From Chitinophaga pinensis (GTDB lineage Bacteria > Bacteroidota > Bacteroidia > Flavobacteriales_D > Crocinitomicaceae): a DNA stretch of 41,227 nt. Below, piece after piece: positions 20,479-24,727 of this stretch; position 1 is the stretch's first letter, and each line of letters begins with the position of its first letter. The stretch covers positions 1-41,227 of the forward strand of contig CALPWQ020000009.1 of the NCBI GenBank assembly GCA_943327315.2, in the 5' to 3' direction. The notes beneath the pieces were generated by a model. It had not been told where the DNA came from and did no database searches. It saw only the letters and a list, made by a program, of their open reading frames with translations. A program made the position numbers and the translations under genes.

Positions 20479-20628
20479 AACATTCTATAAAATAAGTATT
20501 CGCAACAGTGTTGTCGTAGATTGAACTATTCGAACAGTGTGTATGAGCAACCTTGTTGGGATGTGCCTAAAACCATTAACATCAATTTACACTTTTTTAG
20601 GATTGGCAAAATTTCTTTCCAACTAGAT

Positions 20629-20900
20629 TCAAAAAAGTCCCAAATCCATTACAGGTGCTGAAAAAGGACCGTGACCAGTTGCTGGAGAATTCGATGCGAT
20701 CATTGTTCTACTTCCTTCATTGCAATAAAAAGATTTTTGACAACTGTTGGTGGGATTCATTTGATCAATCGTACTGACATAATACCAATCACTTTGAATT
20801 TTCTATGCAGTAATATCCAATATTGCAAATCCTTTTTTCGTAAGCTCAACATACTTGAGATGGGGATTTTCAAACGTTAAAAATCCACCAATATTAAAAA
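20629..20900 (-). pseudogene. Remnant of the C-terminus of a PhoD-like alkaline phosphatase
   Basis: Minus-strand translation LVFNIGGFLTFENPHLKYVELTKKGFAILDITA*KIQSDWYYVSTIDQMNPTNSCQKSFYCNEGSRTMIASNSPATGHGPFSAPVMDLGLF*. It matches the PHxKYVxLxxxGxxxLxxTxxxxQxDWYxVxTI pattern of PhoD-family C-termini, with an in-frame TAG and no start codon or N-terminal part. Confidence 0.65.
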
Positions 20901-21291
20901 CTAATTAATATGTTTCATATCAAGGGAAAATTAACTTTTGATAAAAAAATCATGCTCTTGAGCGTACTGGTGATAAATGAACATTACAAAAAAATACCAA
21001 TCAGAAATGTAAAAATCATCCAAAAAAACTCGTTAAAAACTTCCGATTGGAGGTGCTAAGGACGTTGAAATTTGGACGTTTCGCAGAAGTTTCTGGCCTC
21101 ATCTACGATACAAAGTATTTTTTTTTAATTTGATCATATCGCTTAAAATAAACACTTTTTTAAATTTTATTTAAACGCAATTTTATTGTATTTAAAAATC
21201 TTAACAATAGATGTTTATGAGAATTATATTTTTAATAGAAAACAAAAAAAATAAATCCACTAAAAAAATAATTTGTTTAATTTTTTTTCAA

Positions 21292-21306
21292 TTTTGTTAA
21301 ACAAAA
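21292..21306. promoter_or_regulatory. 15-bp palindrome upstream of the rhodopsin gene (possible operator)
   Basis: TTTTGTT-A-AACAAAA; perfect 7-bp arms, but in very A/T-rich DNA. Confidence 0.25.
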
Positions 21307-21408
21307 AGATCATGCACGCTGTTTTTATTTTTTAGATTTAACTGATTTTAACAAAAGGAGTATCCGAAAATCCTTAAAGAGTAGGGCTAACTAATTTAAT
21401 TTATTACT

Positions 21409-22125
21409 ATGGAACATTTAAAGATTGCCAGCGACAATTACGTTGCGTTCACGTTCTTTATTGGAACGATGGCCATGATGGCCGCCTCTGTTTTCTTCTT
21501 CTTTGAATTAAACAACACCTCAAAAAAATGGAGAACTTCAGTTCTTGTTTCGGGGTTAATCACCTTCATCGCAGCGGTCCACTACTACTACATGAGAGGG
21601 TACAACTTATCAACGGGAGATTCTCCAACTTTCTTCCGTTATGTAGACTGGATCTTAACAGTTCCGTTGATGTGTGTTGAATTCTACATCATTACAAAGA
21701 AGGCTGGAGCTAAAATTTCGCTTTTGTGGAAATTGATTTTTGCTTCATTGATCATGTTGGTTACAGGTTACTTCGGTGAAACAATCGACCGTGATAATAG
21801 CGTTCTTTGGGGTGTGCTTTCAGGTGCAGCTTATTTCTACATCGCATACCTCGTTTGGTTCGGTGAAGTGGCTAAACTAGCGCAAACAGCTGGAGCTCAA
21901 GTAGCAAAAGCAACACGTATTTTGGCGTGGTTCGTGCTTGTTGGTTGGGCGATTTACCCACTCGGGTACATCTTGGGTACTCCAGGTGGATTGTTCGGTA
22001 TCACACTTGTCGATGACGCTGCTGCTGCTGCTCATGCGATGGATATCGTTTACAACATTGCAGATGCCATCAACAAAATTGGATTTGGTTTGGTGATCTA
22101 CGCTTTGTCTAGAAGCGAAGACTAA
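21409..22125 (+). CDS. Microbial rhodopsin, proteorhodopsin/xanthorhodopsin-type proton pump
   Basis: Helix C RYVDWILTVPLMCVEFY (D80, T84, E91 = DTE motif; M88 at PR position 105), H58 (PR His75 equivalent), Schiff-base lysine K223 in YNIADAINKIGFGLVIY. Confidence 0.97.
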   Translation: MEHLKIASDNYVAFTFFIGTMAMMAASVFFFFELNNTSKKWRTSVLVSGLITFIAAVHYYYMRGYNLSTGDSPTFFRYVDWILTVPLMCVEFYIITKKAGAKISLLWKLIFASLIMLVTGYFGETIDRDNSVLWGVLSGAAYFYIAYLVWFGEVAKLAQTAGAQVAKATRILAWFVLVGWAIYPLGYILGTPGGLFGITLVDDAAAAAHAMDIVYNIADAINKIGFGLVIYALSRSED

Positions 22126-22156
22126 ACAAATTTTCTTAAAAGATTTTTAAATTCGG

Positions 22157-22195
22157 AAAAGGTGGATTTGCTTTAAGCTCTTCCACCTTTTTTTA
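22157..22195 (+). terminator. Rho-independent terminator between rhodopsin and crtY::blh
   Basis: AAAAGGTGGA ... TCCACCTTTT stem followed by T run. Confidence 0.8.
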
Positions 22196-22241: not shown

Positions 22242-24236
22242 GTGCAAAACGATACACAGACATATGATATCATCTTTGTTGGAGCGGGTGCATCAAGCTC
22301 CCTTATACTTTTTCAACTTAAAAAAAGGAATCTACTCAATAAATTGTCGGTACTTGTTGTTGATTCCGAATTAAAGACAGGAAGCGATAAAACATTTTGT
22401 TTTTGGGCTGAAGAAGAATCTAGAATGGCCAAAGAACTTGATTTTTTGATCAAACACTCTTGGAAAAGCATTGTCGACAGTTGCGGTGACATCAAAGAAA
22501 TTCTCCCCTACAAATACCACCATATAGACAGCCTTGACTTGTACAATTACGTTCGTGAGATAGAAGGCGATAGCCACTTCGATCGATTAAATGCTAGGGT
22601 AGGTGCTGTTTCGCGGGATGAACAGGGTCCATACATCCTGGTCGATGAGAAAATCTTTCGGGGCAGAACTATTTTTGATTCACGAACACCAGTTTTTCAA
22701 AAAACAGCAAAAGGTCAAGAACACCTCTACCAAAGTTTCATAGGATGGGTTATTGAGACAGAACAAGATCTTCCCGAGAGTGATTCATTCCGTTTAATGG
22801 ACTTCGATATTGAGCAAAATGGGTTTACTCAATTTATGTATGTGCTTCCATTTTCAAAGAACAAGGCCTTAATTGAGGTCACGCGTTTTGGAAACGAACC
22901 TATAGAAACAACAGGTGCAGAAGCGCTTCTTCAAGAGTATGCCAACAAAAATTATGGGGATTTCAAAATAGTGTCACACGAGGTCGGATGTATTCCGATG
23001 AGTAATTTTGAGATTGAACGAAATATTGGTTCAGGGATTTTTCCCATTGGCGCAAAGGGGGGGCAAATTAAACCGAGCACCGGGTATGCGTTTAAAAACA
23101 TGTATGAACAATCATTGGTTTTAGCAGATCGCATAGAAAATGACATGTTGTCTTTGCAAACTTTGTTACAAAAAAATAAATCTACACCCAAACGCTTTGC
23201 CTTTTATGACTCCATTCTGTTGACCATATTAGGCTCTAGACCTGAAAAAGGAAAATCAATTTTTCTCGCATTATTCCAGAAAAATGAAACCAAGGTGGTC
23301 TTGAAATTTTTGGATGAAAAAACGACCATTTGGGAGGAGGTTTTATTGTTTTCAAGACTTCCGCTAGTGCCATTTTTAAGCGCTTTGATTCAATTGTTTC
23401 TCCATTCAAGGTCTTTTAGACCGACCATGCTTATTGTCATTTGCTCCATATTATTTGTGTTAGGAAATCATTCTGTAGCTCAGGATATTCTTGGCTACGG
23501 ACTTCTTTTGATTGGTTTTGTCACAGTAGGAATTCCGCATGGGGCAATCGATCATCTCATAGAAAGTGGCAATTGGGAATTGAAAGGAATCGCAAAATTC
23601 TCATTGAACTACATCTCCAAGGCCCTCATCATGATGTTCCTTTGGATGTTGTCTCCACTGCTTGCCTTGCTCTTTTTTCTATTGTTTTCGAGTTGGCACT
23701 TTGGACAAACAGACGGAAAAAATTGGCGTTTTTCAAACCTTACTTCTTTCCTTTGGGGAACCTCCGTATTGATCTACATTCTTGGAACACACACAAAGGA
23801 AACAGCGGATATTCTCAGCGCTATTGATAGTCATTTTTTCAACCTTGCAATTCCATTTTGGTCTTTATTCCCCTGGATTATTGTTGCACTTATAACGAAA
23901 CGCACATCTTTTGTTCTCACGCTCATTTGGTTGCTTCTATCCAGTCAACTTCCATTGATTTTAGCATTCGGAATTTATTTTGTTGGTCAACACAGCCTGT
24001 CCAGTTGGTCTCATTCCTCTGAATACCTTAAACTGTCCAACAAATCCATGTGGATGCACTCACTCCCATTTCATTTAGGGGCTTGGGCCTTGTTGGCAAT
24101 CACCATGGTATTCAATACATTTTTCATTCAAACGACGGATGCTGAGGTATGGGGAATTTTCTTCATTTTTATTGCGTGCATTAGTTTCCCCCATGTCATT
24201 TGGATGCATAAGTTATACACGAGAAATTCCTTTTGA
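22242..24236 (+). CDS. crtY-blh: Fusion protein: lycopene beta-cyclase (CrtY-like, ~aa 1-385) + Brp/Blh-type beta-carotene 15,15'-dioxygenase (~aa 396-664)
   Basis: N-terminal Rossmann YDIIFVGAGASSSLILFQL, TFCFWAEEE, FDSRT, QSFIGWVIETE, MDFDIEQNGFTQFMYVLPFSKNKALIEVTRF, GCIPMSN, IGAKGGQIKPSTGYAFKNM (CrtY). C-terminal GIPHGAIDH, SSWHFGQTD, YFVGQHSLSSWSH, SFPHVIWMH in a multi-helix membrane domain (Brp/Blh). GTG start. Confidence 0.92.
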   Translation: MQNDTQTYDIIFVGAGASSSLILFQLKKRNLLNKLSVLVVDSELKTGSDKTFCFWAEEESRMAKELDFLIKHSWKSIVDSCGDIKEILPYKYHHIDSLDLYNYVREIEGDSHFDRLNARVGAVSRDEQGPYILVDEKIFRGRTIFDSRTPVFQKTAKGQEHLYQSFIGWVIETEQDLPESDSFRLMDFDIEQNGFTQFMYVLPFSKNKALIEVTRFGNEPIETTGAEALLQEYANKNYGDFKIVSHEVGCIPMSNFEIERNIGSGIFPIGAKGGQIKPSTGYAFKNMYEQSLVLADRIENDMLSLQTLLQKNKSTPKRFAFYDSILLTILGSRPEKGKSIFLALFQKNETKVVLKFLDEKTTIWEEVLLFSRLPLVPFLSALIQLFLHSRSFRPTMLIVICSILFVLGNHSVAQDILGYGLLLIGFVTVGIPHGAIDHLIESGNWELKGIAKFSLNYISKALIMMFLWMLSPLLALLFFLLFSSWHFGQTDGKNWRFSNLTSFLWGTSVLIYILGTHTKETADILSAIDSHFFNLAIPFWSLFPWIIVALITKRTSFVLTLIWLLLSSQLPLILAFGIYFVGQHSLSSWSHSSEYLKLSNKSMWMHSLPFHLGAWALLAITMVFNTFFIQTTDAEVWGIFFIFIACISFPHVIWMHKLYTRNSF

Positions 24237-24337: not shown

Positions 24338-24409
24338 AGCTCCGTAGTTCAATGGATAGAATAAAAGTTTCCTAAACTTTAGATACAGGTTCGATCCCTG
24401 TCGGAGCTA
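24338..24409 (+). tRNA. tRNA-Arg (anticodon CCT)
   Basis: AGCTCCGTAGTTCAATGGATAGAATAAAAGTTTCCTAAACTTTAGATACAGGTTCGATCCCTGTCGGAGCTA. 7-bp acceptor, AAAGT/ACTTT anticodon stem, ACAGG/CCTGT T-stem. Confidence 0.93.
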
Positions 24410-24727
24410 CTTCTTTTTGACCTTTTAGGTCAAAAGACAAAAGACTCTTCCGCTAATGCGGAATCAAAGACAAAAGACCGCTTCGCTCAAAGACTTGTGC
24501 TTACTTCGAACGCTGAAATTCGTGTATTCGAGTGCCTCACGTGTTCACCGCGGTTGAGCCACCATGAACTTCAACTCGTAACTCGTCATTAGTAACTCGT
24601 AACTAAAACACCCAAGGTGCCGCTACGCTCTTAGAATGTTGACTGATTCATTCTTCACTCTTAATTTTTAATTTTTAATTCCCCACCCCCTTTAATTTTC
24701 GTTCCTTTGTAGCCGCAATTCAAGTCA

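Follow-up and report, generated by a model that had tools for sequence, protein, structure and literature searches.

A 664-aa open reading frame in which a CrtY-type lycopene cyclase is joined in frame to a Brp/Blh-type beta-carotene 15,15'-dioxygenase was identified in the window, the whole 41,227-nt stretch of DNA analysed here. The host is a flavobacterium-like bacterium, and the fusion gene adjoins a gene for a light-driven proton pump. The fused frame is real, being neither a frameshift nor an assembly artefact. Its product is probably a membrane-bound bifunctional enzyme that would lead from lycopene through beta-carotene to retinal, likely as a branch reserved for retinal. The features of the locus are as follows.

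21409..22125, forward strand: proteorhodopsin, 238 aa (Pfam PF01036, E 5e-42; motif read from the translation)
22156..22192, forward strand: terminator-like hairpin with a T run after it, in the gap separating the rhodopsin and fusion genes (fold computation)
22242..24236, forward strand: CrtY-Blh fusion gene, 664 aa, GTG start (ORF translation)
22266..23384, forward strand: CrtY-type lycopene cyclase domain, residues 9-381 (Pfam PF05834; alignment with Pantoea soli CrtY)
23385..23513, forward strand: joint, comprising the C-terminal CrtY helices and the first hydrophobic helix ahead of Blh, residues 382-424 (predicted structure)
23514..24215, forward strand: Brp/Blh beta-carotene 15,15'-dioxygenase domain, all-helical, residues 425-658 (PF15461, TIGR03753, conservation, AlphaFold2 model)
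24338..24410, forward strand: tRNA-Arg (CCT), downstream of the fusion gene

The fused frame and its two domains

Translation of positions 22242-24236 of the forward strand gives 664 codons from the GTG start with no internal stop. Separately named MAG records preserve the whole fused frame at identities of 92, 89, 51-45 and 35%, and seven genomes from the host's genus, in part the same MAG records, do so at 92, 89 and 36-39%; the fusions of close relatives differ by in-frame indels only. In comparisons of the window with its two closest relatives, dN/dS was 0.19-0.22 in the CrtY part, 0.13-0.15 in Blh and 0.22-0.28 across the junction of 49 codons, and such purifying selection in both domains and at their junction (about 0.13-0.28) indicates that the joined frame is held by selection. 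An earlier note on this DNA had allowed for a missed stop or frameshift that would leave two separate genes; conservation of the fused frame in other assemblies rules this out. Adjacent, overlapping crtY and blh genes do occur in relatives and could in principle be merged by a sequencing or assembly error, but at least 87 of the 175 sampled genomes with Blh in the host's order have the fused frame open (BCD matches in frames of 631-720 aa, among the matches listed), as do three genomes outside the order, and with the indels of close relatives all in frame an error of this kind is exceedingly improbable.

The same note described an in-frame CrtY::Blh fusion, and this is borne out, with both catalytic cores intact, by two full domains above the Pfam cut-offs and by the presence of the motifs it quoted. 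Pfam Lycopene_cycl (PF05834) matches residues 9-381 over positions 1-378 of the 380 in the profile (E 4e-44, 151.6 bits against a cut-off of 23.4). The domain has a GxG FAD motif, a catalytic-type E212 and a TGY motif, all invariant or nearly so in the fusions. In the alignment with Pantoea soli CrtY, E212, G14, G16 and T280-G281-Y282 correspond to E199, G11, G13 and TGY, and all of 47 fused and 17 separate CrtY sequences retain E212. We equate P. soli E199 with the catalytic Glu reported for CrtY of Pantoea ananatis, and E212 would then be the catalytic-type acid of the fused cyclase. The CrtY half scores below the cut-off of the NCBIfam CrtY equivalog TIGR01789 (54.2 versus 215.2 bits), as do the separate Bacteroidota CrtYs tested.

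In the C-terminal half, Pfam BCD (PF15461) matches residues 425-658 (E 2e-31, 110 bits against a cut-off of 28), and NCBIfam blh_monoox (TIGR03753) is also above its cut-off (120.2 versus 95.25 bits). Six histidines had been listed as hallmarks of this domain. Four of them stand: H433, H486, H584 and H651 do not vary in 52 aligned fusions, and each occurs in 35 or more of 36 separate Blh, whereas H438 (45/52) and H591 (37/52) are not conserved. The histidines of the fusion sit in GxPHG, HFG and HS motifs, with H651 as the fourth invariant His; the Blh of the uncultured marine bacterium 66A03, also a Brp/Blh-family 15,15'-dioxygenase but a single-domain one, probably shares these motifs. By motif context we take H21, H78 and H188 of 66A03 to be the counterparts of H433, H486 and H584. 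The site of its H192, placed by motif context four positions after H584, is G, S or A in the fusions and His in none of them; of 36 separate Bacteroidota Blh, just 3 have His there. In 66A03, H21, H78, H188 and H192 are required for activity (Kim et al. 2009, as cited in PMC9227343).

Two further observations concern Blh. H517 (window positions 23790-23792) is invariant in the fusions and in the genus g52, discussed below, but is shared by just 9 of the 36 other Blh; it is possibly a lineage-specific active-site or interface residue. Another Bacteroidota genome has a 956-aa frame (L073:4143-7013, reverse strand) that ends in Blh; the roughly 620 aa ahead of it gave no Pfam or NCBIfam match and may reflect a mis-called start or another kind of fusion.

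In the AlphaFold2 model (pLDDT 79, pTM 0.65, with the placement of the domains uncertain), a geranylgeranyl reductase-type FAD-enzyme fold leads directly, without a long linker, into an all-helical membrane domain. In a structure search the predicted fold resembled FAD-dependent geranylgeranyl reductases and allied flavoenzymes, and none of the 50 matches listed was Blh-like; phmmer found no solved structure for the fusion. CrtY works at the membrane surface and Blh inside the membrane, so the order N-CrtY-Blh-C is a natural one and suggests a corresponding membrane topology for the fusion.

Distribution and origin of the fusion

A genome search for the same domain architecture, which the earlier note had proposed, showed that it recurs widely in the host's bacterial group, a point that the note did not contain. 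A BCD match was found in 175 of the 399 genomes sampled from the host's order. Every frame of 631-720 aa that was fetched and scanned also had a CrtY domain, those of L035 and L100 being interrupted within it. In L100 (1498-3515, genome G372) the fusion frame is split within CrtY into two overlapping ORFs, for which a frameshift or an assembly error is a candidate explanation. The phylum-wide sample added three fused genomes, all from one genus outside the order. Viral origin and plasmid carriage were considered and dropped: the viral contigs scanned contained no relative of the fusion, and among 72,556 plasmids no record covered most of it, the matches listed being to CrtY only.

In the CrtY tree, the 47 fused sequences and the interrupted copy of L100 form one group (support 100/99), and the next group out consists of the separate crtY genes of family f4, whose stop codon and the blh start share the sequence ATGA. 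The Blh tree unites the fusions and genus g52 in one group (support 99/99), within which g52 is nested beside fused sequences from its own family; family f4 does not lie beside the fusions there, its sister placement being backed by the CrtY tree only. Both trees are unrooted, and the direction of change follows from the position of separate pairs outside the fused group. The separate crtY-blh pairs of relatives overlap by 4 nt (ATGA), and since the nearest CrtY relatives are encoded in such pairs, the fusion was likely born from a coupled pair. A single fusion event from a translationally coupled crtY-blh pair is most likely, as judged from the two domain trees, for which one fusion and one later loss of a cyclase half suffice. 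Repeated independent fusions are unneeded, as each domain tree yields one fused group.

The only clear loss is that of genus g52, which later shed the cyclase half and kept Blh alone. Its genomes have the CrtYcd cyclase introduced below and no CrtY match over the cut-off, and no CrtY remnant was found beside the g52 blh genes. The fusion is thus dispensable for cleavage. Fusion-lineage Blh without the cyclase half is seen at L063:4249-5118 and at the other g52 loci (L088, L090-L094, L096), where the ORF upstream, some 1130 aa long, overlaps blh by 4 nt and has an N-terminus similar to that of the downstream ORF of L063. The 387-aa frame of L065 is inflated in length by Ns.

A second cyclase and the role of the fusion

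The host genome, 97% complete, has one Lycopene_cycl match and one BCD match, both in the fusion. Its crtI, crtB and idi genes lie together on another contig, and by score the CrtI is the bifunctional phytoene desaturase/3,4-desaturase CrtID. A third contig carries a CrtYcd cyclase, unrelated to CrtY, whose gene overlaps by 4 nt that of a 159-aa protein with CrtZ-type histidine boxes. No Pfam or NCBIfam family matched the latter, which by motif reading is a putative CrtZ-like hydroxylase. CrtYcd is present in 56 of 60 fusion genomes, the host included, so that having two unrelated cyclases, of which one is tied to Blh, is the rule. This co-occurrence is a new observation, absent from the earlier note, and gives the strongest clue to function: it suggests that a maker of cyclic carotenoids retains a distinct CrtY fused to the cleaving enzyme.

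The redundancy with CrtYcd in most hosts, together with the score under the CrtY equivalog cut-off, might be taken to mean that the CrtY half is catalytically dead and serves Blh merely as a membrane or substrate-binding module. This is highly unlikely given the invariance of the catalytic-type residues and a dN/dS of about 0.2 in that half. Moreover, the three fusion genomes from outside the order and genomes G189, G112 and G205 have no CrtYcd match, and the fusion is the main cyclase found in them, with the qualification that G205 carries one further separate CrtY and that G112 and G205 are only 83-87% complete.

With both cores intact, a proteorhodopsin gene adjoining and crtB and crtI in the genome, the fusion is most naturally read as taking lycopene to retinal on a single polypeptide, and we assign both activities to the fusion with high confidence on the evidence of its sequence. 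The N-terminal FAD-dependent CrtY domain would cyclise lycopene to beta-carotene at the membrane surface, the C-terminal integral-membrane Blh domain would cleave beta-carotene at its 15,15' double bond into two retinals, and these would be supplied to the neighbouring proteorhodopsin. The description as a single-gene retinal synthase was too broad, as the fusion covers only the last two steps of retinal synthesis. Since the host has a separate CrtYcd and a CrtZ-like hydroxylase, the fusion is most likely a branch reserved for retinal, apart from bulk carotenoid synthesis, in which beta-carotene would be cut where it is formed, ahead of hydroxylation by the CrtZ-like enzyme.

Channelling of beta-carotene from cyclase to dioxygenase, also raised in the note, is put forward as a hypothesis. 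The fusion might merely secure co-production and anchoring of the two enzymes, with no channelling and with beta-carotene shared with the membrane pool of CrtYcd and CrtZ. Co-expression alone could explain a fusion that probably arose from a translationally coupled pair, one genus (g52) manages with Blh alone, and lipophilic products can move through the bilayer, leaving beta-carotene free to diffuse. Persistence of the fusion across several families at 35% identity, with just one clear loss of the cyclase half, and purifying selection on that half despite another cyclase in 56 of the 60 genomes tell against this explanation, which is nevertheless a serious contender, if somewhat below an even chance.

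A division of labour between the cyclases is possible as well, though we are doubtful of it: the host CrtYcd may be a monocyclase making gamma-carotene for monocyclic pigments, and the fused CrtY may add the second ring, perhaps converting either lycopene or gamma-carotene to bicyclic beta-carotene for cleavage. In the bacteroidete Algoriphagus, a CrtYcd fusion-type cyclase acts as a monocyclase (PMC2889829), the scoring of the host CrtI as CrtID fits monocyclic pigments, and both cyclases are kept in most fusion genomes. However, the CrtZ-like neighbour of crtYcd fits zeaxanthin equally, and in g52, which has Blh and CrtYcd but no CrtY, the products of CrtYcd seem to be enough. Returning to the retinal-reserved branch, its boldest form, a direct hand-over retinal synthase widespread in bacteria that insulates the retinal line from a zeaxanthin or monocyclic pigment line with a different cyclase, is a tentative proposal.

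Known systems and the rhodopsin locus

Each of the two enzymes is already known; the bacterial CrtY-Blh fusion is provisionally new, no description of it having been found in the open-access literature, to which the search was confined. Published work on marine Flavobacteriia with proteorhodopsin and blh (PMC5932025) makes no mention of it. The nearest reported protein is the CrtI-CrtB-CrtYcd-Blh fusion of Thecamonas (PMC10016063), in which, likewise, one polypeptide holds a lycopene cyclase together with a C-terminal Blh and has been proposed to lead directly to retinal; both proteins are known from sequence alone. The Thecamonas protein is eukaryotic and has four domains with a CrtYcd cyclase, whereas by Pfam the bacterial fusion has two, with an unrelated FAD-dependent CrtY. 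The CrtYB and CrtIBY proteins of fungi and thraustochytrids also join consecutive carotenoid enzymes but, unlike the bacterial fusion, cover upstream steps with a CrtYcd cyclase and no dioxygenase. Pantoea CrtY, a lycopene beta-cyclase, aligns in its FAD-binding GxG, E and TGY motifs, and differs in being a single domain, at about 24% identity. The Bacteroidota crtY-blh pairs at L060, L069, L084 and L085 have the same two enzymes in the same order, at L069 with a rhodopsin upstream as at the fusion locus, but as two polypeptides coupled through the ATGA overlap instead of one.

Rhodopsin phototrophy relies on a supply of retinal, and a rhodopsin-linked fusion in a host with a second cyclase makes the split of beta-carotene between retinal and protective pigments directly testable. 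The fusion is also a compact part for retinal production in engineered hosts.

The adjacency to rhodopsin that had been noted is confirmed: the fusion gene starts 116 nt downstream of a proteorhodopsin gene, assigned to its family by PF01036, whose product has the D-x3-T-x6-E proton-pump motif (RYVDWILTVPLMCVEFY) and the retinal-binding Lys in helix G. The suggestion that the fusion would fix stoichiometry with this rhodopsin is weakened by the terminator-like hairpin in the gap and by the roughly one half of loci without a nearby rhodopsin. The 116-nt gap folds at -20.5 kcal/mol (z -2.9); the hairpin at 22156..22192 is absent from a consensus terminator scan with a loop limit of 8. Rhodopsin was found in 55 of 60 fusion genomes and within the fetched stretch at only 27 of the 52 fused loci examined.

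At the fusion locus no further carotenoid gene lies downstream of the tRNA-Arg. Upstream of the rhodopsin gene, about 930 nt of AT-rich sequence lacking any long ORF (window positions 20479-21408) may be a promoter region or the remains of a gene. Short repeated words, AAAGACAAAAGAC and TAACTCGTAACT, were seen by eye between the tRNA-Arg and era (window positions 24420-24700).
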